Assembly (NCBI GenBank): GCA_013298595.1
Contig: JAAFIG010000003.1
Span: forward strand, 1-64,000
DNA length: 64,000 bases
Source: Deinococcales bacterium
Lineage (GTDB): Bacteria > Deinococcota > Deinococci > Deinococcales > JAAFIG01
Reading direction: 5' to 3'
A program made the translations under genes and the position numbers. Under the pieces are notes generated by a model. It saw nothing but the letters and a program-made list of their open reading frames with translations, made no database searches and had not been told where the DNA came from. Positions 1-64,000 of this stretch are shown here, piece by piece; within the stretch, counting starts at the first letter, position 1; each line of letters opens with the position of its first letter.

Positions 1-80
1 GTTTTGGCGGCTGGTAAAAGTGGTTCGAGATGCTTAAACTGTTGGCGGGTAAGGCTACTGGTGTAGATTTTTTGTTTCAC
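1..80 (-). CDS. IS5-family transposase, N-terminal fragment (partial)
   Basis: A minus-strand frame opens with GTG at 80-78 and stays open to the window edge. It reads (M)KQKIYTSSLT, then ends in LEPLLPAAK. The pattern 'T-s-L-T-x-x-Q/E-[FW]-x-x-L-E-P-L-L-P' is the start of the DUF4096-type N-terminal domain of IS5-family transposases, which bind the element ends and catalyse cut-and-paste transposition. Only 26 residues are visible, so neither the catalytic DDE residues nor intactness can be judged. The family call rests on this short but characteristic motif. Confidence 0.65.
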   Translation of the reverse strand, partial: MKQKIYTSSLTRQQFKHLEPLLPAAK

Positions 81-122
81 AGCTTAATTCTGACCGGCTT
101 TACCCACTTTATAAACACGCTC
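1..122 (-). mobile_element. End of an IS5-like insertion sequence (partial, runs off left edge)
   Basis: Only the 5' end of the element is in the window. It carries the first 26 codons of a transposase on the minus strand. The probable terminal inverted repeat reads inward from 122 and begins GAGCGTGTTTATAAAG on the minus strand. The adjacent TAA at 123-125 could be one copy of the short target duplication typical of IS5-family members. The other end lies outside the window, so the boundary and duplication are inferred. The element abuts the broken start of the SDR gene. Confidence 0.6.
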
Positions 123-127
123 TAAAC

Positions 128-964
128 AAAATTGTACTCGTCACAGGTGCAAATTCAGGTATTGGTTTAGCCACAACCATCGGATTAGCCAAACAAGGTG
201 CAACTGTATTGATGGTCGCTCGAGATCAGCAAAAAGGCAAAGCTGCACTCGAAGCTGCTAAGCAACGAGCAAACAGCCAAAAGATTCAATTACTCCTCGC
301 CGATTTAGCCTTACAAAGCGATATACGACGATTAGCTCGAGAGGTACAACAACAATACTCGCATCTGGACGTGTTGATTAACAACGCTGCGATTATTCCT
401 ACCGAACGACAACTCACCACCGAAGGCATCGAAATGCAATTAGCCGTCAATCATCTTGCCCCATTCTTACTAACCAATCTGCTTTTACCGCAACTCGAGC
501 AAGCCGAACAAGGACGAGTTGTTACCGTCTCGAGTGTGGTACATGCACGTGGACACATCAATGACATCCAAAACACTGCGTACGACCAAACCGGTGCTCC
601 TACCAAAGGCTGGCAAGCCTACTGTAATACCAAGTTGATGAATGTCTTATTTGCCAACGAATTAGCCAAACAAATTGCTCATACTCGAGTGACATCGAAT
701 AGTTTACATCCAGGGGTGATTGGCACTAATCTTTGGCGCACATTACCGTTTTTTATGCGTTTTGTTGCTAACCTAACCATGCCCAAACCAGAACGTGGTG
801 CACGAACATCTATCTATCTTGCCAGCGACCCCAGCCTAGATAAAACAACGGGTAAATACTTCTCGGATGATCGCAATGAAATTCCTGCCCATGCCAATGC
901 GCTCGACCCAGTTTTACAACAACAACTCTGGACAATCAGCGAAGAATTGGTTCGCCAAAAATAA
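128..964 (+). CDS. Short-chain dehydrogenase/reductase (retinol-dehydrogenase-like), 5' end interrupted by IS
   Basis: This is an NAD(P)-dependent oxidoreductase of the SDR superfamily, probably cytoplasmic, substrate unknown. Counting from the codon at 128, the cofactor motif TGANSGIG is at about residues 6-13, NNAA near 86, the active-site Ser in TVSS near 135, and YCNTK gives catalytic Tyr ~165 and Lys ~169. Homology starts right at the IS end. The frame is open upstream to 53 but has no ATG, GTG or TTG before the glycine motif. The first usable starts (TTG 209, ATG 212) would remove the Rossmann motif. I infer that the IS removed the native start, leaving the gene silent, fused or dependent on a rare start such as ATT at 131. 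The sequence after 128 is otherwise intact. Confidence 0.8.
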   Translation, partial: KIVLVTGANSGIGLATTIGLAKQGATVLMVARDQQKGKAALEAAKQRANSQKIQLLLADLALQSDIRRLAREVQQQYSHLDVLINNAAIIPTERQLTTEGIEMQLAVNHLAPFLLTNLLLPQLEQAEQGRVVTVSSVVHARGHINDIQNTAYDQTGAPTKGWQAYCNTKLMNVLFANELAKQIAHTRVTSNSLHPGVIGTNLWRTLPFFMRFVANLTMPKPERGARTSIYLASDPSLDKTTGKYFSDDRNEIPAHANALDPVLQQQLWTISEELVRQK

Positions 965-990
965 GTACGAGGCTCAAGGTCGCTATGGTT

Positions 991-1974
991 TTACTGTTCT
1001 AAAATCTTTTCCATACAAATACTCCACGTGTCATCCTCGTACGGTGGAAACGCAGAAATTCTCGAGTAGCCATTTTTTTCGTACAGAGCCACCGCTTCGG
1101 GGTTACGATCACCTGTCTCGAGCCGAATGGTTCTCATGCCTAAGCTTGGGGCAACTTGCTCGAGTTTCAGTAAAATCTTTGCCCCCAAACCACGACCTCG
1201 TAAGTTCGGATGCACAAACATACGTTTTAATTCAGTGGTGTCAGCACTCAGTGGGCGAATCGCCGCACAACCAACAGCCACACCACCGACTCGAGCCACC
1301 ACAAAAGCAGCGTTTGGCACGTCTAAATCCTCGGGTTTGAAACGCGCCGCGCCTTGTTGCGGGTCTTCTGGGTAACGACCTCGCAACTCGAGGGTTAGTT
1401 GGTTAATCAGGTTAGCAGCATCTTCGCTGTACACCGATTCAACTTCTACTGTGATTGGATGATGCTCGAGCAACAAACGGTACATGTACACTGTGGCATC
1501 AAATAGACGGGTTTCGCTACGAATATATTCTGGAATCACACCCGCTTTTTGCCAACCAAATTTTGTGTATAAATTTTCCGAAGGATCACCCACTCGAGTA
1601 TCAAGAATGAGCGTGGTGCGATACTGCTGCAATGCCTCGAGTTCGATTTGTTGCAACAAGGCTTGGGCGATACCTTGACGGCGAAAATCTGAATGCACCA
1701 TCAGTTTTGCCACTTCTGCACGGTGTAAACCATTGGCTCGAGAGACTAAATCCAGTTGCACGGTACCAACAACTAAATTGTGCTCGAGCGCAATCAGCAT
1801 CACTCGATTTGTGCCTTGTAAAGCCGTATTCACCTCGAGCCAATAAGCCCGAGCTTCGGCGCTTACCAGCGGTGGCAAAAAACCAATTGAAGCACCACCA
1901 TCCACAGCATTTTGCAGCAACGCAATTAGGTCTGCAAGGTATGGCTCGAGATTTGTTATTCGTTTGATTTCCAC
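991..1974 (-). CDS. Tandem GNAT acetyltransferase
   Basis: This protein has two complete GNAT folds, each of which would transfer an acetyl group from acetyl-CoA to an amine. The N-terminal half carries the acetyl-CoA loop FRRQGIAQALL near residue 100. The C-terminal half carries NLRGRGLGAKILLKLE near residue 255 and ends with the usual ALYEKNGY strand. I chose GTG at 1974 (327 aa, start MEIKRITNLE) because AAGGAG lies about 6 nt upstream and the first GNAT strand begins there. An ATG at 2019 would add 15 unrelated residues. The substrate is unknown. It is transcribed away from the LysR gene. Confidence 0.85.
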   Translation of the reverse strand: MEIKRITNLEPYLADLIALLQNAVDGGASIGFLPPLVSAEARAYWLEVNTALQGTNRVMLIALEHNLVVGTVQLDLVSRANGLHRAEVAKLMVHSDFRRQGIAQALLQQIELEALQQYRTTLILDTRVGDPSENLYTKFGWQKAGVIPEYIRSETRLFDATVYMYRLLLEHHPITVEVESVYSEDAANLINQLTLELRGRYPEDPQQGAARFKPEDLDVPNAAFVVARVGGVAVGCAAIRPLSADTTELKRMFVHPNLRGRGLGAKILLKLEQVAPSLGMRTIRLETGDRNPEAVALYEKNGYSRISAFPPYEDDTWSICMEKILEQ

Positions 1975-2092
1975 AGTGCTCCTTGACTCGAGAGATTGAA
2001 TAATTGAATGCCATACCATCTTAAAATTCTTGATTCACGAGTTCAAGCGCAAAGTATTGATAATTGCTATCGAAAAACCTGATAATAGGACA

Positions 2093-3004
2093 ATGGACGT
2101 AGATCAGTTAATTGCTTTTGAACGCATCGTCCGCGAAGGTAGTTTTAGTAAAGCTGCTTGGGCATTGGGTATCGCCCAACCCAGCATCAGTGCTCGAGTG
2201 GCAGGACTAGAAAATACAGTAGGTGGAGCATTATTTACTCGAGGTCGGAAGGTACGTTTAACCGCTCGAGGAACAAGTTTTTTACCCTATGCACGCAAAG
2301 CACTGGCAACCTTACAAGATGGTCTCGAGGCAGCGCGTTTAGCCCAAAATGGCGAACGCGGTTTGTTAAGAATTGGTGTGTTGCGCTCGTTATCGGGTGG
2401 GTTACTTGGACCTGTGATGCTCGAGTTTCAACAACAATTCCCAGAAGTCGAATGCCAAATTCGAGAAGGTGACCATTGGAATTTGGTCGAATGGCTTTGC
2501 GATGGTTTATTCGATATGGCACTGATTTGCTTTCCTTGTGTTGACCCTTTACTCGCCGATATCACCCCTGTTTTGCAGTTGCAAGAAAACATGGTTTTTG
2601 TGGTGTCTCCACAGCACCGACTGGCACAACCAGCAGGTATTACCCAAGCCGAAATCCTTAGCCATTCCAACCCGTTTTTATTGTTGCGCTGGTGGCAAAA
2701 CACACCATTTGAAATAGAATTACTGGCTACCCAAGCTAAAGCCACCCTCGATGTGCCCAACGAAACAGGGCGGTACTTAGTGACCCACGGACAAGGCGCA
2801 GGATTTTTTAGTAAACCCACCATCGCCTCGGAATTAGCCAACGGCACCATGCTCGAGATTCCAGTTCTAGATATGCCAAGCATTCAGCGAAAAACCGCTT
2901 TAGTACATCTGACACGCCACAAAGAACACTCAGCTGCCGCTAAAAACTTTGCTCTACTCCTCGAGCGCCAAGCTAAAAAGCAGGGCTTAATTGCTATACT
3001 CTAA
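2093..3004 (+). CDS. LysR-family transcriptional regulator
   Basis: This 303-residue protein has the usual LysR length. Residues 1-60 form the winged helix-turn-helix (MDVDQLIAFERIV, then SFSKAAWALGIAQPSIS and a VGGALFTR wing). A long linker helix and a periplasmic-binding-protein-like effector domain follow from about residue 90. ATG 2093 is chosen over the upstream TTG at 2030 because the domain begins exactly there and AGGA precedes it. The effector and targets are unknown. The divergent GNAT gene is the usual place to look for a LysR target. Its 3' end contains the promoter of the LOG gene. Confidence 0.9.
   Translation: MDVDQLIAFERIVREGSFSKAAWALGIAQPSISARVAGLENTVGGALFTRGRKVRLTARGTSFLPYARKALATLQDGLEAARLAQNGERGLLRIGVLRSLSGGLLGPVMLEFQQQFPEVECQIREGDHWNLVEWLCDGLFDMALICFPCVDPLLADITPVLQLQENMVFVVSPQHRLAQPAGITQAEILSHSNPFLLLRWWQNTPFEIELLATQAKATLDVPNETGRYLVTHGQGAGFFSKPTIASELANGTMLEIPVLDMPSIQRKTALVHLTRHKEHSAAAKNFALLLERQAKKQGLIAIL
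2995..3000 (+). promoter_or_regulatory. -10 box of a leaderless promoter for the LOG gene
   Basis: TATACT ends 7 nt before the GTG start at 3008, inside the last codons of the LysR gene. No Shine-Dalgarno site is present, which suggests a leaderless transcript beginning at or near the GTG. Confidence 0.55.
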
Positions 3005-3007
3005 ACT

Positions 3008-3541
3008 GTGAATATCGCTGTGTATTGTGGCTCGAGTTTTGGTAACAACCCTGAATTTGCAAATGCTGCTAAAGCCCTTGGGAAAAGTCTGGCAGAAGCG
3101 AAAACTGGTTTAGTGTACGGTGGTGGCAATGTTGGTTTAATGGGCGCGATAGCCGATGCCGTACTTGAAGCTGGTGGAAATGTGATCGGAGTTATCCCCA
3201 AAGCCCTCGAGCAACGCGAAGTGGCACACAGTAATTTAACCCAGTTAATTATTGTGCCCGATATGCACACCCGCAAAGCCAAAATGATTGAACTTGCCGA
3301 TGCTTTTATCGTTTTACCCGGCGGCATAGGCACACTCGAGGAATTATTTGAAGTCTGGACTTGGGCGCAACTGGGGTATCACCAAAAATCTGTGGGATTG
3401 TTGAATATTGCTGGGTATTACGATCAGCTTCTCGAGTTTTTGGATATGGCTGTAAAAGTAGGTTTTCAAAAACCCATACACCGCGATTTTTTACTGGTCG
3501 AAACCAACCCAACTGCTTTACTCGAGCGAATTAGGCAGTAA
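3008..3541 (+). CDS. LOG-family protein (cytokinin riboside 5'-monophosphate phosphoribohydrolase type)
   Basis: LOG-family enzymes hydrolyse the N-glycosidic bond of (modified) nucleoside 5'-monophosphates, releasing the base and ribose 5-phosphate. At 177 aa this has the usual length. The Rossmann-like start contains VYGGGNVGLMG (residues 36-46), and the family hallmark PGGIGTLEE lies at 104-112, preceded by the conserved R-K pair at 89-91. It starts with GTG at 3008, with a -10 box 7 nt upstream. Its 3' end overlaps the convergent hydrolase gene by 11 bp. Whether it acts on cytokinin-like nucleotides or plain AMP cannot be told. Confidence 0.88.
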   Translation: MNIAVYCGSSFGNNPEFANAAKALGKSLAEAKTGLVYGGGNVGLMGAIADAVLEAGGNVIGVIPKALEQREVAHSNLTQLIIVPDMHTRKAKMIELADAFIVLPGGIGTLEELFEVWTWAQLGYHQKSVGLLNIAGYYDQLLEFLDMAVKVGFQKPIHRDFLLVETNPTALLERIRQ

Positions 3542-4403
3542 AAAAATCTTGACAAATTTTTGAGAAAACACTCGGTTGCTCGAGCCAAGGAATATGCCCG
3601 CAATGATTGATAAACTCGAGTTGAGCTTGAGTCACAAGTTCTTTGATACGGTACGCCTGCGTGATTGGTTCAAAATCTTGATAGCCATAAATAATTTTGA
3701 CTTGCGCGGAAATATCAGCCAGTTTTGCCTCGAGATCATCCCAGTTGATACTGTTCCAAATGTACCGATGCACCAAAGGATGAAATTCACTGGCATCAAA
3801 AGATTGAATAAACGCCGCTCGAGCTTCGTTGTTATACACCGCGTTACGTGCCCAGAATTGAGTCGCACTTTTTTGATGTAATTGCTGTAAAACCATCACA
3901 TCCAAAGCTGCCAAAGCTTGCTTGCGTTGCAATTGCAGTTCGGCTAATTCGGCAAAATCGGTGGCACTAAATCCCCTCGAGAAATTCGCACCTGCCACCG
4001 CATTAAAATCTGAGCGAATCGGACCAGGCGACACTGCCAATAACTTTGCAACATTATCTGGATAAAAACTGGCATACAACAAACCTAGATTTGCACCCCA
4101 CGAATGTCCTAGAACCTCGAGTTGCGCCACACCTAATTCAAACTGCACCGCCACTAAATCCTCGAGCAAAAGAGGTAGTTGTAATGTTTCTGGGCTAATA
4201 CTTTCTAAGATACTCTGCCCAGTGCCACGCTGATCGAGCAAAACCACCGTTCGAGTCTCGAGTAAGGATTGCACCGCAGCTTTCATATACGAACACGAAT
4301 CACCAGGACCACCCGATAACACCAGCAGCGGCGCTCCAGAACCAGCCATCTCGAGATGCAAAGTCACATCAGCTCGAAGTATTTTCCGCACAACCCAATT
4401 CAT
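3531..4403 (-). CDS. Alpha/beta hydrolase, prolyl-aminopeptidase-like
   Basis: This is a 290-residue alpha/beta hydrolase. The oxyanion-region motif GGPG is at 31-34, DQRGTGQS at 57-64, and the nucleophile elbow GHSWG places Ser at 101. Probable acid and base are Asp ~243 (GYQDFEP) and His ~270 (HCGHIPW). GGPG plus DQRG is the combination seen in peptidase family S33 (proline iminopeptidase), so cleavage of an N-terminal residue or an ester is plausible. It has no signal peptide. Its ATG overlaps the stop of the upstream GNAT gene by 4 nt, so the two are co-translated. It is convergent with the LOG gene. Confidence 0.85.
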   Translation of the reverse strand: MNWVVRKILRADVTLHLEMAGSGAPLLVLSGGPGDSCSYMKAAVQSLLETRTVVLLDQRGTGQSILESISPETLQLPLLLEDLVAVQFELGVAQLEVLGHSWGANLGLLYASFYPDNVAKLLAVSPGPIRSDFNAVAGANFSRGFSATDFAELAELQLQRKQALAALDVMVLQQLHQKSATQFWARNAVYNNEARAAFIQSFDASEFHPLVHRYIWNSINWDDLEAKLADISAQVKIIYGYQDFEPITQAYRIKELVTQAQLEFINHCGHIPWLEQPSVFSKICQDFFTA

Positions 4404-5242
4404 ACATTGACCGTTTTGCGATACGAAACCATTTGCCGTTGTAAAACAAAACCAAGACGCTGATACATAGTAATCGCCTCGAGATTTGTGCTATTCACCG
4501 TTAAAAAAACACTTTCTACATTAGCAAAAGTAAAAATCCACTCGAGGGTTTTACTCATCAATTGCCGACCAATACCCTGTCCTCTGGCACTGGGTTGCAC
4601 ACCAATAAACTCGAGACTGGCTGTACCGTATTCGCCGACTTCGGCATAACTATACCCGAGCAAAGTATTATTCTGCTCGAGTACAAAAAGCACATGATAC
4701 TCGGATAAACGCTCGAGAATTTCCGCACCATCATAATATGTATTCGCAAAAATCTGATCGTGCAAGGCTATAAACGCAGCAGCATCTTGCTCAGTCGCTA
4801 CTCGAGCCGTCGTGAGTTGTGGTACCCATTGTTGCTTAGTCAACTCGAGCACATGTTCTTGACCATGAACCACACAACCAATCTGCGATGCAAAAGTCGC
4901 AACACCCGCATTTTTTGCATCGGCAAACAACAGCCATGCTTTAGAATCCACAAGTTTAGGTTCGAGTAAATGCCAAAGCTGCATTACCACAGCAATTTCA
5001 CCCACAGAACCATAAACCCAAGCTCGAGCATCATTATCTATATCTGCACCAAGAAAAGCACAAATACCACTTTCATCTCGAGCAATAAAAAACTGACTCA
5101 ACTCGAGATCAGCTAAATCTGTAGCAATATCTGCTTCGTTACTTGGCACATAACCCATATGCGTTTCAGATTTACTTTGGGCTGTAGCCAGAAAATGCGC
5201 CAAATCTGGAATATCGGCTGGTGATAGCGATGCGAATTTCAT
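4400..5242 (-). CDS. Two-domain GNAT acetyltransferase
   Basis: This is a 280-residue protein. The C-terminal half is a clear GNAT domain, with the acetyl-CoA loop PSARGQGIGRQLM near residue 220 and the closing motif NLEAITMYQRLGF. The N-terminal half is a weaker GNAT-like fold (start MKFASLSPADIPDLAHFL) without an obvious CoA loop, as in mycothiol-synthase-like tandem GNATs. The substrate is not known. It is the first gene of a two-gene unit with the downstream hydrolase and is divergent from the nitronate monooxygenase gene across about 96 bp. Confidence 0.8.
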   Translation of the reverse strand: MKFASLSPADIPDLAHFLATAQSKSETHMGYVPSNEADIATDLADLELSQFFIARDESGICAFLGADIDNDARAWVYGSVGEIAVVMQLWHLLEPKLVDSKAWLLFADAKNAGVATFASQIGCVVHGQEHVLELTKQQWVPQLTTARVATEQDAAAFIALHDQIFANTYYDGAEILERLSEYHVLFVLEQNNTLLGYSYAEVGEYGTASLEFIGVQPSARGQGIGRQLMSKTLEWIFTFANVESVFLTVNSTNLEAITMYQRLGFVLQRQMVSYRKTVNV

Positions 5243-5324
5243 AACCTCGAGTTTGCCATGAGCAAGCGGCTAGGCGCATACGCCAATTCGCGTACAAAAA
5301 CAAATCTAACAAGTTAACTCACGC

Positions 5325-5330
5325 TATAAT
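5325..5330 (+). promoter_or_regulatory. -10 box TATAAT of a leaderless promoter
   Basis: A perfect TATAAT ends 8 nt before the ATG of the nitronate monooxygenase gene. There is no good -35 at 17 bp and no Shine-Dalgarno site. It is one of the clearest examples of the start-proximal -10 pattern in this window. Confidence 0.65.
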
Positions 5331-5338
5331 GTACAACC

Positions 5339-6331
5339 ATGTTAACAACTGAATTAACCAAAAAACTCGGGATTCGTACCCCAATTATCCAAGCACCAAT
5401 CGGTGGAATTTCCATGCCAACACTGGTTGCAGCTGTCTCCAATGCAGGTGGATTGGGTATGCTGTCTGGCACTTGGCGTAAACCTACTGACTTACAAGTA
5501 TTACTAAATGAAACTCGAGCTTTAACCAACGCACCTTTTGCTGTCAATTTTGTCCTCGCATTTGATATTCACGAACAACTCGAGCTTTGCTTAAAGGCGG
5601 GTATCAAAATCTTTTCTTTTTTCTGGGGAGACCCTAGCCCGTATATTGCAGCAATTCATGCAGTGCAAGGTATTGTTATGCACACCGTGGGCAGTGCCGC
5701 CGAAGCCAGAACGGCAGTGGATAATGGCGTTGATATTCTGATTGCTCAAGGTGTCGAAGCAGGAGGTCATGTCTGGGGTGAAGTTTCAAGTTTTGCACTG
5801 CTGCCAGCAATTGCTGATGCGGTAACAAATACGCCAATTGTTGCCGCAGGTGGCATTGCCGATGGACGAGGCTTAGCTGCCGCGCTATGTTTAGGGGCTA
5901 GTGGCGTTTGGATGGGTACACGCTTTGTTGCCACCCACGAAGCCTATGCCCACAGCCACTACCAACAAGCCATACTCGAGGCTGAAGAAACCAGTACCAC
6001 ACATCAGCAACGCTTATTCAATATTGGATGGGATCATGCTGCTCACCGAGTACTAAAAAATAGTACGTATCAAAACTGGTTGCTCGCTGGACAACCCGAT
6101 GTAGGACAACGACCTCGGGAAAACGAAATTGTTAGCACCCTCGAGCAAGGTATAAACATTTTTCGTTACGATTCCGATGCACCAACCAAAGCCGTAATAC
6201 AAGGCAACCCAGAAGCACAAGCCCTATATGCTGGTCAAAGCGTAGGATTGATCCATGAAATCAAATCGGCGGCTGACGTTGTTCTAGAAACAACAAATCA
6301 AGCCTTAGCAATCCTCAATCGAAATTCGTAA
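5339..6331 (+). CDS. Nitronate monooxygenase (2-nitropropane dioxygenase family)
   Basis: This FMN-dependent TIM-barrel enzyme would oxidise alkyl nitronates such as propionate-3-nitronate to aldehydes with release of nitrite, a detoxification reaction. At 330 aa it has family length. Typical features are the N-terminal IIQAPIGGISMPTLVAAVSNAGGLG-type strand (residues 15-40), GVEAGGHVWG with the presumed catalytic-base His near 144, IVAAGGIADGRG (phosphate binding) near 168-179, and GASGVWMGTRF near 190. It stands alone between the divergent GNAT and the convergent ada gene. Confidence 0.88.
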   Translation: MLTTELTKKLGIRTPIIQAPIGGISMPTLVAAVSNAGGLGMLSGTWRKPTDLQVLLNETRALTNAPFAVNFVLAFDIHEQLELCLKAGIKIFSFFWGDPSPYIAAIHAVQGIVMHTVGSAAEARTAVDNGVDILIAQGVEAGGHVWGEVSSFALLPAIADAVTNTPIVAAGGIADGRGLAAALCLGASGVWMGTRFVATHEAYAHSHYQQAILEAEETSTTHQQRLFNIGWDHAAHRVLKNSTYQNWLLAGQPDVGQRPRENEIVSTLEQGINIFRYDSDAPTKAVIQGNPEAQALYAGQSVGLIHEIKSAADVVLETTNQALAILNRNS

Positions 6332-6397
6332 CTCAAGATTGCAGTCCTTACACCAGACTCGCTCGAGACCAAGTGGTGAGACTCCAAAACTTGCCAT

Positions 6398-7435
6398 TCA
6401 ATCGGCAGCAAAAGCCCGTTCTTGCTCGAGTAAACGTTTTTTGCGCTCGATGCCCCACCGATACCCACTGAGCGCTCCGTTGCTACCAATCACCCGATGA
6501 CACGGCACCACCAACGCCACTGGGTTAGTGGCACAGGCTCGAGCCACGGCACGCACCGCACTTGGTTGCCCGATTTCCACAGCAATTTCCGAGTACGAAC
6601 GTGTTTGCCCGTAAGGAATACTCTTTAAGGCGTTCCAAACTCGGCTTTGGAATACCGTGGTTTTCACATCGGTGGGCAAATCGAGGGTTTGTTGCTGCCC
6701 AAGAATATGCTCGAGAATGGCTTGGCTTTGTATGGCTAACAACTCGGAGTTTTGCTCGAGCATAGCGTTGGGGAATTCGGTTTGTAACTCGAGCAGTGTT
6801 TCGGCAACCATTCCAAAACGCACTGCCACTAAACCGCGTTCAGTTGCTGCAATCAAGATGCTACCAAGCAGCGTCTCGAGGTGCGTATAAAAAATAGTTT
6901 CACCCAATCCACCCGCTTTGTACTGCTTGGGATTCATGCCCAGTTGTGCATTTTGCGCTTCGTATATTCGGCTGCTCGAGTTAAAACCAGCTTCGTATAA
7001 AGCCCGAGTAACACTGTCATGGCTTTTTAATTCGTTGCGTAGACGCGTAGCGCGGAATGTTTTAGCGTATTGCTTAGGGCTGACACCAACTGCTGCTTTG
7101 AACACTTTTTGCAAATGCCACGGACTGAGTTGAACCGCTGCTGCAAGAACCTCGAGCGAAGGTTCAGATTCGGCTTGCTCGAGTAAAGCAATCATTTTTT
7201 GTACCACTGCATTGATGTTCTGCAGCCTTACCCAGCATCGTTTGCAACGCCGATAGCCTGCCAGTTCTGCTTCGGCTGGTGTATCAAAAAATTCGACATT
7301 AGTCACTTTTGGTAAACGCGAACTGCAACTGGGTTGACAATAAATCCCTGTGGTTTTGACAGCGTAAACAAATACATTATCCAAGCTTGAGTCTCGGGTT
7401 TGTACAGCTTGCCAACGGAGTTCAGAAGTATTCAT
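6398..7435 (-). CDS. ada: Bifunctional Ada: methylphosphotriester/O6-methylguanine methyltransferase and AraC-type activator
   Basis: Ada removes methyl groups from DNA phosphotriesters and from O6-methylguanine onto its own cysteines and activates the adaptive response. All three parts are visible in 345 aa: an N-terminal zinc domain with four cysteines (C33, C37 and the pair in RRCKRCW near 64-67); an AraC-type helix-turn-helix at about 85-180 (SLEVLAAAVQLSPWHLQKVF and SPKQYAKTFR); and a C-terminal MGMT domain with the alkyl-acceptor motif PCHRV (Cys 312). This is a complete Ada. No separate alkA or ogt gene is adjacent. Confidence 0.95.
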   Translation of the reverse strand: MNTSELRWQAVQTRDSSLDNVFVYAVKTTGIYCQPSCSSRLPKVTNVEFFDTPAEAELAGYRRCKRCWVRLQNINAVVQKMIALLEQAESEPSLEVLAAAVQLSPWHLQKVFKAAVGVSPKQYAKTFRATRLRNELKSHDSVTRALYEAGFNSSSRIYEAQNAQLGMNPKQYKAGGLGETIFYTHLETLLGSILIAATERGLVAVRFGMVAETLLELQTEFPNAMLEQNSELLAIQSQAILEHILGQQQTLDLPTDVKTTVFQSRVWNALKSIPYGQTRSYSEIAVEIGQPSAVRAVARACATNPVALVVPCHRVIGSNGALSGYRWGIERKKRLLEQERAFAAD

Positions 7436-7489
7436 AGCCTTATCTTAGAAGTAATCAAAGATGCCATCAATCCAAATCTTGTGCTGCAA

Positions 7490-8284
7490 TTATTGCAGTA
7501 TCTCGAGAGCATCACCCACTCGTAAAACACCAGAGGTAAGATGAACTGCATTTTGACCAAATAACACTTTATGACCCTGCGTACGATACTTCGCCAATGT
7601 TCGCATCGGTTCAACCCCTCGAGCACCTGTTTCAGGGTGGTTGGTAATCATCACACAACGCGCACAAGGTTTAACGACTTGTAAGGTCAGATCAGCTAAT
7701 CGAATGCTCTGCCATGTATCCTCAGCATGAGGCTCGAGATTGCCAGCAATCACAATATTTGGACGAAACCTCGCCCAAGTTACAGCTTGCTCGAGTTTGG
7801 CATTTAAGGCATCAAGCGAGGCTTGCGAAGCGATCAGCAACGGAAAACCATCATTAAAACTGGTGAACCTTGCCTCTGGCACATACTCAGCATCGACTCG
7901 CCGTGTTCGTTCGTTGGCAAAACAAACCAAACGCACGGCTCGCCCAAGCAAGCTCGAGAACCACGTATCTGCTTCGGAACTAACCAACACAGCTTCACTC
8001 GAGTCATCGGTGATGTGTTGCACCATAATGCGCCGACCAATTGCCACAAATGGTACGTACAGCAACGGCATATCAGCCGCTGAAACTTGCAAACCATCGG
8101 CGGTTAGATGAACTCGAGCCAAAGCCAAACGCGGATCGTTGCGTTGCGAAACAAACACGCCAGCCTCATCTACTAACATCCAACGCCGATCCAACACAGG
8201 ACCAAATTCGTCCAACTCGAGACTGGGCATTGCCACACCAGCCACCGATTTAATCGGATAGACAAACAAATCAGCAATTCGCAT
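7490..8284 (-). CDS. MOSC-domain protein (YcbX/mARC-like)
   Basis: MOSC proteins of this type bind a molybdenum cofactor or handle sulfur and in YcbX/mARC reduce N-hydroxylated compounds. The protein starts MRIADLFVYPIKSVAG, the typical beta-barrel N-terminal domain, and the MOSC domain follows from about residue 120. The conserved Cys lies in KPCARCVMI near 205. The ATG at 8284 overlaps the stop of the upstream cupin gene in a TAATG junction, which fixes the start. A longer frame to 8341 lacks homology. The two genes are probably one transcript. Confidence 0.85.
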   Translation of the reverse strand: MRIADLFVYPIKSVAGVAMPSLELDEFGPVLDRRWMLVDEAGVFVSQRNDPRLALARVHLTADGLQVSAADMPLLYVPFVAIGRRIMVQHITDDSSEAVLVSSEADTWFSSLLGRAVRLVCFANERTRRVDAEYVPEARFTSFNDGFPLLIASQASLDALNAKLEQAVTWARFRPNIVIAGNLEPHAEDTWQSIRLADLTLQVVKPCARCVMITNHPETGARGVEPMRTLAKYRTQGHKVLFGQNAVHLTSGVLRVGDALEILQ

Positions 8285-8679
8285 TATCCGATTGTACCAG
8301 CCGAAGCCTGCACACTCGAGTCCACATAATGCGTAGCCCAAGGTGCAATAGCCATACCAACTATCGTGGTTTCCTGATCGCTACCATCAAAATGCACAGC
8401 GTTAGCTGGTACAAAAACCACGCTGCCAGCAGGGTAAGCCTCGAGCTTAGCCGCATCAAAAACATCACCATAACCAAGGTATAACGTGCCATGCAGCACC
8501 ACCACTCGAGCATCGGCGGTATGCCAATGTGGAGGATCCCAAAAGCCACTGGGAATCGCAAACGCATAGGTAAAACCCGTACCAGCCACGTCACGCCGAC
8601 CCTCGAGCAAACTGTATTTTGTGCCATCAGCAGCGATATCCTGCCACTCAAGCGTAGCAATATTCCAAGATTGTTTCAT
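8284..8679 (-). CDS. Cupin-domain protein
   Basis: This is a 131-residue single-domain cupin. The metal-binding motif appears as PPHWHTADARVVVLHG around residues 52-67 and the second cupin box as AGSVVFVPANAVHF around 83-96. The reaction is unknown; small cupins range from enzymes to binding proteins. The ATG at 8679 has a TAAACT box 7 nt upstream and no Shine-Dalgarno site, which argues for this start rather than the longer frame to 8748. It is followed directly by the MOSC gene. Confidence 0.75.
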   Translation of the reverse strand: MKQSWNIATLEWQDIAADGTKYSLLEGRRDVAGTGFTYAFAIPSGFWDPPHWHTADARVVVLHGTLYLGYGDVFDAAKLEAYPAGSVVFVPANAVHFDGSDQETTIVGMAIAPWATHYVDSSVQASAGTIG

Positions 8680-8686
8680 GCAAAAG

Positions 8687-8692
8687 AGTTTA
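8687..8692 (-). promoter_or_regulatory. -10 box (TAAACT) of a leaderless promoter
   Basis: TAAACT on the minus strand ends 7 nt before the cupin ATG at 8679. It has the same arrangement as the other start-proximal boxes here. Confidence 0.5.
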
Positions 8693-8782
8693 ACAATTTT
8701 GCTCTCGAGAGACTCATCAATTCTTGTGCTGCAATTAAAAAGACGCAAGCAAACAGCCTCGCGCCTTAATAACCCATTGGTT

Positions 8783-9277
8783 TTACTTCATTTTCTTTGG
8801 CATTAAAACTGTATCAATCACATGAATCACGCCGTTAGAAGCAGCAACATCAGCTTTGATCACTTTGGCATTGTTAATCTCGAGCACTTTACCCATCACC
8901 GAGATATTCAGCATTGAACCCTCAACACTGGTTGCAGTTTTCCCATTCATTGTCATGGCAGTGGCTCCCATGACTTTGCCTGAGACCACATGGTACAACA
9001 GCACACGTTTTAGTTCGGCTTTGTTTTTTAGCAAAGCATCCAAATCAGCTTTTTTGATTTTCGCAAAAGCAGCATTGTTTGGAGCGAACACAGTAAACGG
9101 ACCTTTACCCTCGAGTGTTTTCACCAAATCAGCCGCTTTTAAGGCAGCCACTAAGGTACTAAATTGTGGATCGGAAACAGCGACACCAACAATACTGGGT
9201 GTAGCAGCATTACTTTGTAACAAAAGAGCTGGAGCAATTCCAGCCATTAACAATCCTACTAGTGCAAATTTCTTCAT
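8783..9277 (-). CDS. Secreted fasciclin-domain protein
   Basis: This is a 164-residue secreted protein with one fasciclin (FAS1, beta-Ig-H3) domain, a fold used for cell adhesion and matrix contact. It has a signal peptide (MKKFALVGLLMAGIAPALLL, cut near SNA-A at about 24). The FAS1 signature follows: STLVAALKAADLV, then GPFTVFAPNNAAF (about residues 62-74), YHVVSGKV and the closing NGVIHVIDTVLMP. ATG 9277 is preceded by AGGAG. The gene is transcribed alone, divergent from the kinase gene. Confidence 0.92.
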   Translation of the reverse strand: MKKFALVGLLMAGIAPALLLQSNAATPSIVGVAVSDPQFSTLVAALKAADLVKTLEGKGPFTVFAPNNAAFAKIKKADLDALLKNKAELKRVLLYHVVSGKVMGATAMTMNGKTATSVEGSMLNISVMGKVLEINNAKVIKADVAASNGVIHVIDTVLMPKKMK

Positions 9278-9448
9278 GAAAACTCCTGATTGAAAGGGTA
9301 GACCCACCACGTTGGCGGTCTTGAAAGCAGTGTAAACGCATCAAAAAACAATTGATATGCGGGTTCGTACGATTGAAACTCATCGCAGCACACCTTTGCT
9401 TAACCACGGAACTTTTAGCACGCCAATCTCGTAGAATAACCCAGAGTC

Positions 9449-10891
9449 ATGACCACCTGCCCATTCTGTGCCTCGAGCACCCCCGAAGATGCCATCAGTT
9501 GCCCAACTTGCGGAGCTACACTGGCAGGCTTACAACTCGAGACAGGTTTGGTCTTAATCGGCAAGTACACTCTCGAGCAAGTGTTAGGACAAGGTGGGTT
9601 TGGTATCACGTACCTTGCCACCGACCAATCCCTAAATCGTAAAGTAGCAATCAAAGAACTCTTCCCTGAAGGCTGCACCCGAGACGGCAATACCTTAATT
9701 CCTGCCACGAGTTTAGGGCTGAGTGGCTTTGCCGAAACCAAAACACGATTTCTCGAGGAAGCCCAAACCTTAGCGCAATTCAATCATCTGCATATTGTTC
9801 GCGTTTTCGAGGTTTTTGAAGCCAACAGCACAGCTTACATAGTCATGGAAGCCCTTGAAGGAAAAACACTAGGCAATATTCTGGCTCGAGATGGCACCTT
9901 ACCCGAAATCTACGTTAAACGCATTGCCACCGATGTATGCGATGCTCTCGAGATTGTGCATCAAAACGGTTTATTACACCGCGACATCAAACCCGACAAT
10001 TTATTCATCACCACCGATAACCGAGTGGTGCTACTCGATTTTGGTAGTGCTCGAGGTTTCCAAACAGGCAAAGCCCTACGACACACACAACTGGTTAGCC
10101 CTGGCTATGCCGCCCCAGAACAATATGCCAGCCAAGCAAAATTTGGAACCTACACCGATGTCTACGGTTTAAGTGCCACACTATTCCATGCAGCCACAGG
10201 CAAACCACCACCCACTGCCAGCGACAGAGTGATCTCGAGCGATGCAGATTTGCACATGCCAAGCCATATTGCAGAACCACTGAGAACAGCCCTGACTCGA
10301 GGCTTGGCATTACGTATAGATCAGCGTCCACAGACAGCAAAAGATTTTGTCAAATTACTCGAGGAGAAGTCGTTCACACCAATATCAAAGCCATTTAGTC
10401 AAACCATTCCCAACAAACAGACTGAAACAATTTTATTTCGTAATAACGATATGCTTGTCACTTCCAAACAAATAGAAATCAAACAGCAAGATCAGTATAG
10501 AACTGTTAGCACTTATTTCATATCTGATCTTGCTTTAGCAGAAGTTACTAACGATCAAACAAAACTGCCGCTCAAAATGATTATGGGTGGCGAACCAGGC
10601 GTCTGGGTAGTACTTTTAGGATTACTCTGTGTAGCAATCACTTTTGGTATTTTAAAAGACTTATCCATTTCACTACCCGTAGCAGCAATACTTATTTCGA
10701 TAGGTACTTATTTCTATGTCAAATGGTTTCGCAACCAAAAAGGCACCTTTTATCTTCACTTGGTTTTCAAAACAAATACGCAAAATGCACACATTTTTCA
10801 TATGCCTACAGAATTATTTCTTTTACCAAATGCAATACCTCAAGAAGCCGAAATTGTTGCAAGCCGCATTCGTGCTTATCTCGAGCCTTAA
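9449..10891 (+). CDS. Membrane-anchored Ser/Thr protein kinase with N-terminal zinc ribbon
   Basis: This is a 480-residue Hanks-type kinase. It has a zinc ribbon (C4, C7, C18, C21), a P-loop GQGGFG near 48-53, VAIKE with Lys 69, the catalytic loop HRDIKPDN at 177-184, DFG at 197-199 and an APE-like AAPEQ near 221. Two adjacent hydrophobic segments at about 383-430 should place it in the membrane with the kinase domain cytoplasmic. A short soluble tail follows. The zinc ribbon-kinase-two-helix order is uncommon. The target is unknown. TAGAAT at 9432-9437 is a possible -10 box, 11 nt from the ATG. Confidence 0.88.
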   Translation: MTTCPFCASSTPEDAISCPTCGATLAGLQLETGLVLIGKYTLEQVLGQGGFGITYLATDQSLNRKVAIKELFPEGCTRDGNTLIPATSLGLSGFAETKTRFLEEAQTLAQFNHLHIVRVFEVFEANSTAYIVMEALEGKTLGNILARDGTLPEIYVKRIATDVCDALEIVHQNGLLHRDIKPDNLFITTDNRVVLLDFGSARGFQTGKALRHTQLVSPGYAAPEQYASQAKFGTYTDVYGLSATLFHAATGKPPPTASDRVISSDADLHMPSHIAEPLRTALTRGLALRIDQRPQTAKDFVKLLEEKSFTPISKPFSQTIPNKQTETILFRNNDMLVTSKQIEIKQQDQYRTVSTYFISDLALAEVTNDQTKLPLKMIMGGEPGVWVVLLGLLCVAITFGILKDLSISLPVAAILISIGTYFYVKWFRNQKGTFYLHLVFKTNTQNAHIFHMPTELFLLPNAIPQEAEIVASRIRAYLEP

Positions 10892-50000: not shown

Positions 50001-50514
50001 CGCTACCTGTAATCAGTGGTTCGCCTGCGTCCAAAATGGCATTGCCATTAGCATCGCGGTACAACAGCAAATTCTCGAGATTAAAAGCATCGGTGGTATC
50101 CTGAATTAAGCTTAGGGTAATTGTGTCCGAAGCATTACCCGAATTTTCTAAAGTGTAAACCAATGTAGCACTCGAGCCAGGATTACCAATACGATTATTG
50201 CTTGGGGCAACAGGTAAAGTAAAATTACTGGTTGGTGCGCCCACACTACTGGTATTGCCTGCATCTGGAATCAGATTGATTGAATAAATAGAGCGAGTGA
50301 CAATGCTGGCAACATTAGAAAGCGCATTGTAGGTGTTGCCATCGGCTGTTGTAAAACTGATACTGGCTTGGTTTTCGATTAACGTACCAGCCAATGTGGC
50401 ACGTTGTGCCAAAGCAGTATTGGTAAAAATGCAAAGCAAAAATAAGCAGCAACGCAAAACCCACTCGAGACCTGCTCGAGAGAAAATGCTTGGCATTGTT
50501 GCTAAAGTAATCAT
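47017..50514 (-). CDS. Secreted DUF11/SdrD-like repeat protein
   Basis: This is a 1165-residue exported protein. It has an N-terminal signal anchor (about 12-36, ending TALAQ), then repeated DUF11-type beta modules with the 'N-T-a-x-I-x-x-x-D-x-L' style (for example LEKSALQTVVSIGGSIDYELRIRN). An SdrD B-like/carboxypeptidase-regulatory module follows near residues 970-1035 (GRIFFDKNRNRMFDGSDYPLAHARIYL, then GRYSFPELQPGLYALRLD), and a last DUF11-like part. Such proteins build cell-surface layers or fibres. AGGAAAA precedes the ATG. It is coupled by ATGA to the barrel protein, which suggests they act together. Confidence 0.82.
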   Translation of the reverse strand: MITLATMPSIFSRAGLEWVLRCCLFLLCIFTNTALAQRATLAGTLIENQASISFTTADGNTYNALSNVASIVTRSIYSINLIPDAGNTSSVGAPTSNFTLPVAPSNNRIGNPGSSATLVYTLENSGNASDTITLSLIQDTTDAFNLENLLLYRDANGNAILDAGEPLITGSVTLAPNAKINIFAVGTIPTTAASNAVTRIDLQARSSDTTLWDNNNLGSVTVVRDAAPVLAKSATEPDLTGLIEYQIFGNNIGQRAARSIASVVRVDGNPLDGILLTDSIPAGTQLEIRNPATASTGTGFGSLIIYQTNGLWSSIPNPRATIIGLLLRDPHSTDALPEDTFAVGSSFQFSFFVRVLNTVQGGTRIRNVAQLEYGDATDSKRQVLSNEAVSSVFERSGISILPRDGLTSGTYMFTEPTTGKTWNITRTGDNTNQTDSQSIVNVPGGIAVSFVNTIQNTGNIADTFSLELDTSSDLQGATLQFLDETMLLPRNSVRLLPNEQIDLVVRIVLPLNFTNIKAVLRTKASLSTLSDISTNIVVAASSAAIWIGPLGQATVNEYPDPLDSQSQEIFVGANANYNFSVLNASSFTDTLELNLESVLPTGWTTRFLAADGSVLLDTNNNGKPELSNMTAGETRAMTLQVIPPTGTVGNNAGNGWQAVLRLQSILAPRLQNRTLSILSRIRPSSDAFTLEKKVSAARVNQGTTLEFNLTWRNVSGSVQNNVVITDILSALLEMPSNISSNGTFDAVSKTLTWRFNNVAINESKTLSFLAKVRVDTPDLERILNTASISSQAVVIPVVSNTTQTDVLGSILQLEKSALQTVVSIGGSIDYELRIRNASQNAKLENLTLTDTMPVGIVYKLGSSRLGDIPLEPTVTVQSGVQVLTWAIGTLNANTTLRIRLVGLVTPNAPERVENRAIATAIGGANKISVTSNNAIAAVKVEASIFGRASAILGRIFFDKNRNRMFDGSDYPLAHARIYLSNGAYTISDSQGRYSFPELQPGLYALRLDPLSAPWTLQSMPGDTNVGTRHVSINDPAPQQIDFPLLAPEAQLQKSRRTTLTMGIANLEKQVVAGGAGYAVNLVLQLQQNVANLRLTDPLPIGAERKQLEVQNAAGQTVNFSIAEDGALLFAQLEAGTYRIRYALLTNVAAERACTDPDLYWDEVLP

Positions 50515-50563: not shown

Positions 50564-50663
50564 CGCTCCCGTTAGACGAATCTACGGGAGCGAACAGAAG
50601 AGGTCTGCACTTCGTGAGGCAGTACCAATGACGAGGTGCAGCCCCCACATTGTGAGGGCTGCA
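50564..50663 (-). ncRNA. Structured inter-gene RNA with mutually exclusive hairpins
   Basis: Within the operon transcript (minus strand) three hairpins can form between two DUF11 genes: TGCAGCCC/GGGCTGCA (50637-50663), CTGCAC..GTGCAG with TCGT/ACGA (50605-50641), and CGCTCCCGT/ACGGGAGCG (50564-50592). The first two share the arm at 50637-50641 and cannot coexist. No T tract follows. It may be an attenuator, processing site or stabilising element. No known RNA family was recognised. Confidence 0.55.
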
Positions 50664-50672
50664 TTGTCCGGA

Positions 50673-53774: not shown

Positions 53775-53798
53775 ACATCCTCCAAGGATTAGGTTGAA

Positions 53799-54281
53799 TT
53801 ACTTAATTTTGACGCGGGCTTTAAAGGTGACTGAGGCTTTAGCTGCCAGTGGAGCGCCGACCACCCAACGCAAATGGGTGTACTGATTGACTGGGACGAG
53901 TTCTTCAACAGTTTTGCCATCTTTGGTGACTTTGCGTTTCAGTGGTAACGCTGCAAAACTACGTTTGTTATCTGCTGAAGCTAGTAAAGTGGCAACACTT
54001 GCCACATTAGTGGCGCTTCCCTCGAGATAAACCGTATTTTTTGGAATGGGTAAATCCATCACCAATTTTGTGATTGGTTTATCTGTTGGGTTTTGAGCAG
54101 TGGTTCGGTACTCGAGAACACTACCTGGTTTAGCACTATTTGCTTTCTCGAATTTCTCCGTGGTTTTACCATTGCTGGTTGTGCTGACCACCAAGAAACT
54201 CTCAAGCAATAATTGTGGGCGTTGAGCAACTTGCGCTACTGCAAGACTCGTAAAAAACATCAGCCAGATTGCTAATTTCAT
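53799..54281 (-). CDS. Small exported DUF11-like protein
   Basis: This is a 160-residue protein with a signal peptide (about 1-16, ending AVAQ) and one beta-rich DUF11-like module: GSVLEYRTTAQNPTDKPITKLVMDLPIPKNTVYLEGSA (about residues 53-90) is the 'x-Y-x-x-x-x-x-N-x-x-x-x-x-x-x-x-x-x-x-D-x-x-P' core. Basic residues are frequent. It lies 24 nt before the next DUF11 gene and has a strong AAGGAG. It may be an accessory or assembly partner of the larger surface proteins, an inference from position only. Confidence 0.75.
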   Translation of the reverse strand: MKLAIWLMFFTSLAVAQVAQRPQLLLESFLVVSTTSNGKTTEKFEKANSAKPGSVLEYRTTAQNPTDKPITKLVMDLPIPKNTVYLEGSATNVASVATLLASADNKRSFAALPLKRKVTKDGKTVEELVPVNQYTHLRWVVGAPLAAKASVTFKARVKIK

Positions 54282-54455
54282 AGATACTCCTTGGTTTTAT
54301 TCTATGGCTTGGGGTTTGGATTCTTTGGTTGATTCCGACATGGCTCTGAGACGCTAAAAACTATATTTTGCTGCAACATACTGCTTATTGTCACACAAAT
54401 CACAATATCAGCACAAAACCTTCTGGTTAGGCAAAGTGTAAGGGTTCTGTAAGCG
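54282..54455. other. Inter-gene spacer in the surface-protein operon
   Basis: This 174-bp gap separates the lectin-like gene from the small DUF11 gene. It has no ORF. It is A+T rich near 54360-54420, with ACAAT/ATTGT repeats and TATAGT on the minus strand that could serve as an internal -10. I see no clear terminator. An internal promoter is possible but not proven. Confidence 0.4.
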
Positions 54456-57167: not shown

Positions 57168-57327
57168 CAAATCACTTCAATATACCGAATCAAGTCACAA
57201 TTGGTTGGTCAAAACAACATCACACCATGAGGGGTTGCAACACCCTTGGGTTAGGGTTGGCATATATTATTTTTTATGTCACAAATTGATGATTACAAAA
57301 CACCCTATGCTTTTGCCTAAGACGTTC

Positions 57328-60519: not shown

Positions 60520-60524
60520 AGTCC

Positions 60525-61831: not shown

Positions 61832-61838
61832 GGGCTTT

Positions 61839-62030: not shown

Positions 62031-62353
62031 TACCCGAGGAAAACAAATCCAGCATTCGTATCGAATGGTCAGACCGTGCCCGTCAAGACCTCGAGGAAAT
62101 CTATGAAAACCTCGAGCAGCATTCAATAGACGCGGCTGACCGTACTGTGCAACGCCTGATTGGTGTAATTGAAGATTTAGTTGCCGATGACACCCTTGGT
62201 ATTGCTGTGCCCAATCCACGCCACGAGAACCTCTTTAGTTTTGGTGAACGCCCGTACCGTATGTACTACCGTAAACTCGAGTACAGCCTCGAGATTGTGC
62301 ACATCGAAGAAAGCACTAAGCGCGGCACCCTTGCCAATAAACCATTGCGTTAA
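62027..62353 (+). CDS. RelE/ParE-superfamily toxin
   Basis: This is a 108-residue toxin-like protein. The ParE pattern is visible: IEWSDRARQDLEEIYENLEQHS (about residues 10-31), RLIGVIEDLVADDTLGIAVPNPRHENL, then ERPYRMYYRKLEYSLEIVHIEESTKR, the conserved R-x-x-Y and strand-end region. ParE toxins poison DNA gyrase, while RelE toxins cut mRNA at the ribosome; the sequence looks closer to ParE. It overlaps the antitoxin stop and ends in a 4-nt overlap with the convergent GrpB gene. Confidence 0.85.
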   Translation: MIPEENKSSIRIEWSDRARQDLEEIYENLEQHSIDAADRTVQRLIGVIEDLVADDTLGIAVPNPRHENLFSFGERPYRMYYRKLEYSLEIVHIEESTKRGTLANKPLR

Positions 62354-62922
62354 GCGTCCGATGCACCGAGTTGCCAGTTGGTCAAAGTCGCCCATTCCCA
62401 AGCACCTGTCATAAACAAATCAAATGCTGGGTCTTTGATATCGTAATAGGCTTCGGCGTTATCGGGAAAATACCGAGCCAATTGGCGTTTAACTTCGGCA
62501 TACGCTTCTCGAGTACCAGCATGGGTTCGTAAGTAATCGCGGCATAAAAGGGCATACCGCTGATTAAAACGCCCCTCGAGGCGAATATGCACATTGGCAA
62601 AACGTGGCAATAACATCTTGGCAAAACGTTTCTCGAGTTGATCGGGATTAAGCGTCAGACCGGGTGGTATATGGTCAAAAACGGCTTCTTCACGCCAAGT
62701 TAAACCACAAGACTCGAGCGCACCTTTCAAGGCTGGGTTATCTAAACTCGAGACAGTGATTTGAATGTCTATCACATCTTTGGCAGCAAGTTCTGGCACG
62801 CTGGTACTACCAATATGATCTATTCGCAAAGCCAGATCGCCAAGTGCAGTTCGTAAACTCGAGCCAATGGTTTTAAATTCCCCGAGCCAGCGTGTCTGAT
62901 ACGGCATGATTACAATGCTCAT
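62350..62922 (-). CDS. GrpB-family (UPF0157) nucleotidyltransferase-fold protein
   Basis: This is a 190-residue GrpB/UPF0157 protein: VIMPYQTRWLGEFKTIGSSLRTALGDLALRIDHIGSTSVPELAAKDVIDIQI carries the family landmarks (YxxxW near 8-12, IDHIGSTSVPGL-like near 34-45, and KDVIDIQI with the Asp pair). The fold is a minimal nucleotidyltransferase and the biochemical role is unclear. GGAGG precedes ATG 62922. Its start overlaps the stop of the Imm1-like gene by 4 nt. Confidence 0.9.
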   Translation of the reverse strand: MSIVIMPYQTRWLGEFKTIGSSLRTALGDLALRIDHIGSTSVPELAAKDVIDIQITVSSLDNPALKGALESCGLTWREEAVFDHIPPGLTLNPDQLEKRFAKMLLPRFANVHIRLEGRFNQRYALLCRDYLRTHAGTREAYAEVKRQLARYFPDNAEAYYDIKDPAFDLFMTGAWEWATLTNWQLGASDA

Positions 62923-63329
62923 GTTTCCTCCCAAAGCACACCCGAGTCTGGTTCGCCTTGTAAAAAATAGTGTTTGACAATCTGCAATGTTTGCTCGAGA
63001 TTCCAAGTGAATCTTTGCTCGGTGCTAAAACCCTGATCGGAAATCCAGAGGTCAAGCATTTCACTCGAGCCGTTCGGATTGACTGCTTGAATCCAGTACC
63101 CATCTTCATCAGCAATTTGAATGTGATACACACTCTCACCACCTGTCACTGCCATCGCATTGGTATCACCAATGCCTTCATTTAAGCAAAGCCAGAGAAT
63201 TGGTTGGTCAAAACGGTGCATGTTCCCAAGCCGTAACTCGAGGGTAGCCCAATCTGGCTCGAGTAGTGTTTCGGTGGTGTATGCCGAGTTATCTCGAAGG
63301 TAGCGAATAATGTCGAGCGAAGCAATCAC
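62919..63329 (-). CDS. Imm1-like immunity-type protein
   Basis: This is a 136-residue acidic protein. Its C-terminal pattern, a final helix then HYFLQGEPDSGVLWEE, and the GESVYHIQIADEDGYW strand resemble the Imm1 family of immunity proteins that neutralise nuclease-type polymorphic toxins. No partner toxin gene is adjacent (upstream is an ABC exporter), so this may be an orphan immunity gene or a related protein of other function. It lies 3 bp from the ABC exporter stop and is coupled by ATGA to grpB. Confidence 0.5.
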   Translation of the reverse strand: MIASLDIIRYLRDNSAYTTETLLEPDWATLELRLGNMHRFDQPILWLCLNEGIGDTNAMAVTGGESVYHIQIADEDGYWIQAVNPNGSSEMLDLWISDQGFSTEQRFTWNLEQTLQIVKHYFLQGEPDSGVLWEET

Positions 63330-63332
63330 AAA

Positions 63333-64000
63333 TTACACCCCTGCAAGTTCTTGGTCAGCGTATTGCAAGTTGTACAAAGTGGCATAGTATCCGCCGTGTT
63401 GCAGCAATTCATCATGGCTGCCTTCTTCAACAATTTTGCCTTTTCGCATGACAATAATACGGTCGCAGTTTTTAATGGTGCTTAAACGGTGAGCAATGAT
63501 GATGCTGGTGCGTCCGTGCATGACTTTTGCCAGTGCATCTTGGATTTGTAACTCGGATTCTGTGTCTATATTGGCGGTAGCTTCGTCGAGAACAAGTAAA
63601 ATATCTGGATTAGCAATTAATGCCCTTGCAAATGCCAAGAGTTGCTTTTGCCCTGTGGAAAGCGTTGCACCGCGTTCCTTAACCTCGGTTTTATAACCGT
63701 TGGGTAAACTCGAGATAAATTCGTGCACACCCACGTACTTACAGGCTTGAATGATTTTCTCGAGTGGAATGCTTTCATCGTTCATTCGCAAGTTTGATTC
63801 GATGGTGCCACTAAATAAGTAGACATCTTGCAATACCACACCAACATGTTTACGTAAGTCGCGTTGCACAATTTGACGGACATCGGTACCATCTACCAAA
63901 ATACTGCCTTTTTGAATATCGTAAAATCTCGAGACAAGGCTGATGATGCTGGTTTTACCCGCTCCAGTGGCACCAACCAGTGCCACACTCTGCCCAGGTT
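63333..64000 (-). CDS. ABC exporter, ATP-binding domain (partial, runs off right edge)
   Basis: The last ~222 residues of an ABC transporter nucleotide-binding domain are visible. Walker A is GATGAGKTS, the Q-loop VVLQDVYLF, the signature [15 protein letters not shown], Walker [14 protein letters not shown] and the H-loop AHRLSTI. The sequence style ([31 protein letters not shown]) is that of exporters with fused membrane domains (MsbA/YheH/SmdB type). The transmembrane half must lie beyond 64000. It is probably co-transcribed with the Imm1-like and grpB genes. Confidence 0.92.

Follow-up and report, generated by a model that had tools for sequence, protein, structure and literature searches.

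CTCGAG as a proposed highly iterated palindrome-class word in a Deinococcales bacterium, with short-range exclusion between sites and loss of other palindromes

Why should one six-letter palindrome be written hundreds of times into a single stretch of bacterial DNA? The question is raised by positions 1 to 64,000 of contig JAAFIG010000003.1 from a Deinococcales bacterium (the window, 64,000 bp in all; source genome G000, 4.58 Mb, family f1), in which 419 copies of CTCGAG were counted. An order-1 Markov simulation of the window gave an expectation of 6.2 ± 2.9 copies, with a maximum of 17 in 100 runs, and the expectation is 3.6 once CTCGAG is masked from the background. The enrichment in the window is 66-117-fold, the range being set by the background used. 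An earlier note on this DNA had counted about 86 copies by hand in positions 1-10050 and estimated a 40-fold enrichment; the recount of the letters gave exactly 86, and the estimate proved real and conservative. The runner-up palindrome, TTGCAA, has 49 copies. CTCGAG is spread window-wide with 13-35 sites per 4 kb, and neither a strong flanking extension of the word nor the cyanobacterial highly iterated palindrome 1 (HIP1, GCGATCGC) was seen in the window.

According to the earlier note, a genome-wide count near expectation, or an equal enrichment of other hexamers, would make the window misleading. Both were checked. The whole of G000 contains 27,159 CTCGAG and 15 copies of the reversed word GAGCTC, and AGCGCT is the only other palindrome that is even mildly raised (2.4-fold), most palindromes being depleted. 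The 64-kb window is typical of a genome rich in CTCGAG, and the overall density in the CTCGAG-extreme genomes is about one site per 150-170 bp. Only 5 of 370 2.5-kb windows of G000 hold two sites or fewer. Four of these five, at 30-35% G+C, appear to be recent imports, and one of the four covers the methyltransferase (MTase) gene L054.

CTCGAG was counted per genome in 111 genomes of the phylum; most of the comparisons reported here draw on 44-931 kb sampled from each genome rather than on complete genomes. The range is 5,900-6,500 CTCGAG per Mb in the four genomes of the source organism's own family f1 and 6,200-7,700 in the two f2 genomes of genus g5, with 3,570 and 297 per Mb in the f2 genomes G001 and G004, respectively. 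Within family f4, genera g10-g12 have approximately 1,400-3,400 per Mb, and in genus g13 CTCGAG is not enriched over GAGCTC. The Thermaceae-like genus g12, which is probably Meiothermus, shows a 13-fold enrichment, approximately; g13 may correspond to Thermus. Against a CTCGAG-masked background the word is 25-98-fold above expectation in samples of G000, G005, G006, G007, and G003, where it ranks first among palindromes by a wide margin. The source organism is not a cyanobacterium, and its named relatives are Deinococcales metagenome-assembled genomes.

A pattern scan of the GTDB collection took loci with clustered CTCGAG. Among the matches listed, the largest high-density group consisted of Deinococcales metagenome-assembled genomes, and, except for a tandem repeat in Lentibacillus salicampi, loci more than about 15-fold over their own order-1 expectation came from Deinococcales. 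The Lentibacillus locus (L088:991-3643) was rejected as an independent case, as it comprises two tandem arrays of a ~21-bp unit containing CTCGAG with no genome-wide pattern. Matches in Natrialbaceae (L074, L139, L157, L176, and others) and Rhodococcus were likewise set aside: the enrichment is only about 6-fold in loci selected for clustered sites, and other palindromes are not generally lost. Two loci of the Myxococcota genome Dive96_bin1.27 (L105 and L132) showed approximately 11-fold enrichment, also in loci selected for clustered sites and with no general palindrome loss.

The coding/non-coding and ortholog comparisons rest on simple longest-open reading frame (ORF) gene calls. CTCGAG density in G000 is equal in coding and non-coding DNA, at about 6.2 k/Mb for both, in agreement with the earlier statement that sites lie in all frames and between genes. 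About 60% of the coding sites are in the Leu-Glu frame, where CTCGAG writes 70-81% of Leu-Glu dipeptides and codon usage predicts 2-9%; in the remaining two frames the word is used at 34-64% and 36-50% of possible positions. Outside CTCGAG sites, CTC and GAG are minority codons (12.5% and 34%). At orthologous Leu-Glu positions, 80 pairs with CTCGAG in both members were observed and 77.7 are expected under independence. Thus, CTCGAG positions turn over freely between relatives while the total is held. Because coding and non-coding densities are similar and orthologous positions are independent, the drive acts on the word and not on particular positions or on the protein, as the earlier note had proposed, and the word is used at most positions that the protein leaves open to it. 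Under mutation-selection balance, observed/expected (O/E) ratios of 25-98 would correspond to a scaled coefficient ln(O/E) of 3-4.6 per site. Single-mismatch versions of CTCGAG are at most about 2-3-fold enriched. The C-to-T products CTTGAG and CTCAAG showed no excess over other transition products, which argues against 5-methylcytosine at the central CpG.

The gain of CTCGAG is accompanied by a loss of other palindromes and by mutual exclusion of neighboring sites, neither of which the earlier note had mentioned. In the same five samples, with CTCGAG masked, 29-45% of testable hexamer palindromes are below 0.1 of expectation. For 931 kb of G000 this applies to 18 of 64, with observed/expected counts of 0/148 for AGGCCT, 0/140 for GGGCCC, 3/86 for GAGCTC, 4/223 for TTCGAA, and 2/109 for CCGCGG; non-palindromes have a median O/E near 1. 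GGCC, GRGCYC, and many hexamer palindromes are at O/E 0-0.1 in the window and in all sampled loci of f1 and of g5. The missing words vary by genome: GGCC is nearly absent in G000, G005, and G006 and only two-fold down in G007, which misses GGYRCC and GGWCC, and CCWGG is missing in G005 and G007 yet enriched in G006. Because the missing words are genome-specific and resemble Type II restriction specificities, we infer restriction-site avoidance of unusual depth, with CTCGAG as the exception. Samples of G001 and of family f5 have only 3-4-fold CTCGAG enrichment and keep their palindromes (median 0.90-0.95), and g12 is intermediate (13-fold, palindrome median 0.60). CTCGAG gain tracks palindrome loss over eight samples, which is a correlation and not a demonstrated cause.

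Spacing between sites was analyzed in 2.19 Mb of sampled sequence. CTCGAG pairs at 8-13 bp are depleted 3-8-fold (0.13-0.34 of baseline), pairs 14-20 bp apart are at 0.5-0.8 of baseline, and values near baseline are reached from about 21 bp. The probability that a Leu-Glu pair is written as CTCGAG falls from ~0.7 to ~0.3 beside another site, and in intergenic DNA the deficit of 8-13 bp pairs is about two-fold. Between about 21 and 250 bp, the distance to the next CTCGAG makes no difference to how often Leu-Glu pairs use the word, which indicates no redundancy; spacing is otherwise random (coefficient of variation 0.99), and no helical periodicity was found. Hairpin avoidance was rejected as the source of the exclusion, since generic 6-bp inverted repeats show no deficit. 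The 7-bp spacing CTCGAGNCTCGAG escapes it (0.88 of baseline), with 61 pairs versus 9 at 8 bp in all big samples. The deficit at 8-13 bp together with normal usage from about 21 bp suggests a bound factor, and a factor covering ~15-20 bp is the simplest reading of the exclusion zone.

Candidate MTases for the word were searched with the Pfam profiles PF02384, PF07669, PF01555, PF00145, and PF02086 and with two alignment searches, none of which brought up an MTase common to the CTCGAG-extreme genomes. In g12, an orphan M.Eco57I_C-type MTase (alignment A1) is present in 14 of the 18 genomes, and a solitary M.XhoI/PaeR7I-like MTase in the other 4; among the matches listed, the two are never together in one genome. 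Three of the M.XhoI-like enzymes were compared and are 65-69% identical to a plasmid MTase adjoining a XhoI nuclease (PF04555). The strict either/or pattern over the 18 genomes suggests that both families modify CTCGAG. The PF04555 nuclease is absent from G000-G007 and from all of f1, f2, and f4. Intact copies occur only in three f3 genomes (G012-G014), in which CTCGAG reaches roughly half the density found in congeners; the copy in G108 is broken.

Several of these genes have noteworthy surroundings. The nuclease of G012, G013, and G014 (L325, L326, and L327) adjoins a PF01555-type MTase rather than the usual gamma-type enzyme, and in G108 a frameshifted nuclease lies directly downstream of an M.XhoI-like MTase as part of a degenerate XhoI system (L328, G108:C1 around 1094000-1096300). 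In two g12 genomes the A1-type orphan MTase (L016:9459-11108 and L017:8089-9732) is located at most ~6 kb from a DnaA-box cluster, near the enolase gene and dnaN, and in G083 an orphan M.Eco57I_C-type MTase adjoins dnaG. An example of the M.XhoI-like MTase is L050:1444-3105.

HIP1 was described in 1995 and, to our knowledge, has no agreed function as yet. The earlier note had named it as the precedent, and we judge this to be the right comparison, because CTCGAG has the core features of a HIP: it is a genome-wide outlier palindrome and is spread over coding and non-coding DNA and all frames. As in HIP1 and the alternate HIPs, one palindrome is hugely over-represented and deviations favor the outer positions, and solitary MTases of matching specificity probably occur in at least part of the group, namely g12. 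HIP1 and its alternates, such as GGCGCC in Calothrix PCC 7103, generally reach 1,000-2,000 per Mb and have cognate MTases (PMC4390886). CTCGAG, however, is another word in another phylum, is 3-6 times denser (5,900-7,700 per Mb), and has no internal GC dinucleotide, and the searches showed no MTase common to the extreme genomes; unlike the HIPs as described in the literature found, its genomes show loss of other palindromes and short-range exclusion. The published HIP model invokes repair that requires methylation of a GC dinucleotide and puts the set point at about one site per kb (PMC4390886). Given the missing GC dinucleotide and the higher density, this model does not carry over unchanged. 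In the open-licence literature searched, there was no description of a HIP outside cyanobacteria, nor of a CTCGAG excess in this phylum. With this second, independent case, found in a different phylum and at a much higher density, HIP biology is no longer tied to the biology of cyanobacteria. The case misfits two parts of the published model, the internal GC dinucleotide and the set point, and adds a measurable exclusion zone and the shared loss of other palindromes to the HIP picture.

Other systems share single aspects. The XhoI and PaeR7I systems have the same recognition word, and four g12 genomes have related solitary MTases and G108 has a degenerate system; restriction, however, should lower CTCGAG, as it does in G012-G014, and the extreme genomes lack both the PF04555 nuclease and an M.XhoI-like MTase. 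In Nocardiaceae an orphan MTase for CTCGAG has been reported, and CTCGAG sites cluster near dnaA (PMC4752239). The Rhodococcus loci in our scan show about 6-fold enrichment but were selected for clustered sites. Clustering at origins as in Nocardia was not found in the three origins examined; the DnaA boxes of G007 contain one 7-bp-spaced pair, and those of G006 and of two g12 genomes contain no site. The uptake sequences of Pasteurellaceae and Neisseriaceae share genome-wide accumulation at the word level, whereas CTCGAG is palindromic, about six-fold denser, and not redundant over 21-250 bp.

We tentatively favor the explanation, at somewhat below even confidence, that CTCGAG is a HIP-class word under a uniform drive and is recognized by a site-specific factor, most likely via solitary N6-adenine methylation. 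Each site counts separately if no other is found within ~20 bp, and CTCGAG would be the target of a DNA-binding activity covering ~15-20 bp. Solitary N6-adenine methylation would operate jointly with a factor that reads the methylated site or sits on it, and the MTase may have been swapped between unrelated families over time. Precedents are the cognate MTases of alternate HIPs (PMC4390886) and the orphan CTCGAG MTase of Nocardia (PMC4752239). Methylation and the bound reader are putative components, and restriction is the presumed cause of the palindrome loss. A broader version, which we consider rather unlikely, is that the site-by-site force of the factor with this footprint reshaped the codon choice of the lineage and was coupled to the palindrome purge, leaving CTCGAG as the permitted mark while many other words were removed. 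A number of observations weigh against the methylation-based explanation. The solitary MTase suggested by the earlier note has a candidate in every g12 genome, but no MTase of the five Pfam classes is common to the CTCGAG-extreme genomes, which lack both the A1 family and M.XhoI-like enzymes. That A1 recognizes CTCGAG is deduced solely from the complementary pattern of the two families, part of which could stem from shared ancestry. The density of CTCGAG is alike in the g12 groups with A1 and with the M.XhoI-like MTase (2,059 and 2,314 per Mb), and the f4 genera g10 and g11 match this density although A1 is missing there; as yet, therefore, neither gene can be credited with a causal role. The tolerance of the 7-bp spacing is not explained by a footprint. 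If culturable members are confirmed, the link between solitary methylation and accumulation of the word would become directly testable in those g12 genomes that carry solitary M.XhoI-like enzymes and are probably Meiothermus.

A methylation-independent alternative is an abundant nucleoid-associated protein that binds CTCGAG, the sites being kept by selection on nucleoid packing through occupancy. The exclusion zone of ~15-20 bp, the equal density everywhere, and the lack, in the classes searched, of an MTase common to the extreme genomes all agree with such a protein. It is nevertheless unlikely: there is no candidate protein, spacing beyond the exclusion zone is random and shows no helical period, and the at most 2-3-fold enrichment of single-mismatch sites points to an all-or-none specificity more like that of a restriction/modification enzyme. 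Still less probable is that functionless sites arise as a by-product of biased repair, in which methylation-dependent mismatch repair or a similar tract turns near-matches into CTCGAG. Such a model was proposed for HIPs and thus has a precedent (PMC4390886), and a force that works site by site at any place would suit it, but the published form requires the methylated GC dinucleotide that CTCGAG lacks and predicts a set point of ~1 per 1,000 bp, not one per ~150-170 bp. It gives no reason for the 8-13 bp exclusion, and CTTGAG and CTCAAG are not in excess.

The earlier idea of a DNA uptake signal, built up by molecular drive in a naturally competent lineage, would account for word-level accumulation with free turnover, and the phylum includes naturally competent members. 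However, uptake of fragments of hundreds of bases would make nearby sites redundant, and usage of CTCGAG does not drop with other sites 21-250 bp away. With random spacing and a density roughly six-fold the ~1 per kb of classic uptake sequences, we regard this explanation as improbable. A by-product of amino acid or codon usage (Leu-Glu as CTC GAG) or of base composition could draw on the predominance of the Leu-Glu frame among coding sites, but it has practically no probability left: away from the sites CTC and GAG are minority codons, strong enrichment is seen in the two remaining frames as well, the order-1 expectation of 6 compares with 419 observed in the window, and a non-coding density at least as high as the coding density refutes it.

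An M.XhoI/PaeR7I-like MTase was not found in G000; the nearest relative there, L013, shares ~22% identity and is paired with a nuclease of its own. The MTases that were found in this genome are listed in the table together with the features of the window; none of them is common to the extreme genomes. L059 was rejected as a solitary CTCGAG MTase because its downstream ORF appears NotI-like by eye, so the pair is probably a restriction system. L060 was rejected as well, being ~58% identical to an MTase beside a HpaII-family nuclease and thus probably specific for CCGG; it is present only in G000, G005, G003, and G097. Finally, L209 of G007 was not counted as a CTCGAG MTase, as it is 28-29% identical to M.PaeR7I-like enzymes and is followed by an unrelated ORF.

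Table 1. Features of the window and MTase loci of the source genome G000
Feature	Location	Strand	Remark
CTCGAG set	1..64000	no strand	419 copies, in genes in all three frames and intergenic
Hand-counted stretch	1..10050	no strand	86 CTCGAG copies
Close pair CTCGAGACCTGCTCGAG	50464..50480	no strand	11 bp centre to centre; spacing class under-represented 3-8-fold
Near-absence of many other palindromes	1..64000	no strand	O/E determined in 931 kb of G000
L013	G000		Eco57I-type restriction system
L015	G000:C9:27000-44000		Defence island; DpdE match (E 4e-216) adjoins a 1,241-aa DrmMI-like MTase
L054	G000		MTase in a CTCGAG-free, probably recently imported stretch
L059	G000		PF01555 MTase with a possibly NotI-like partner
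L060	L060:4908-6038 (G000)		Orphan HpaII-like C5 MTase, no nuclease
Further match	G000		Weak D12 match (PF02086 search)

Apart from the word itself, the window holds four very large predicted proteins of 904-1760 aa in a row on the minus strand (41738-57170). Judged by eye, they resemble secreted surface proteins with repeated DUF11-like domains.

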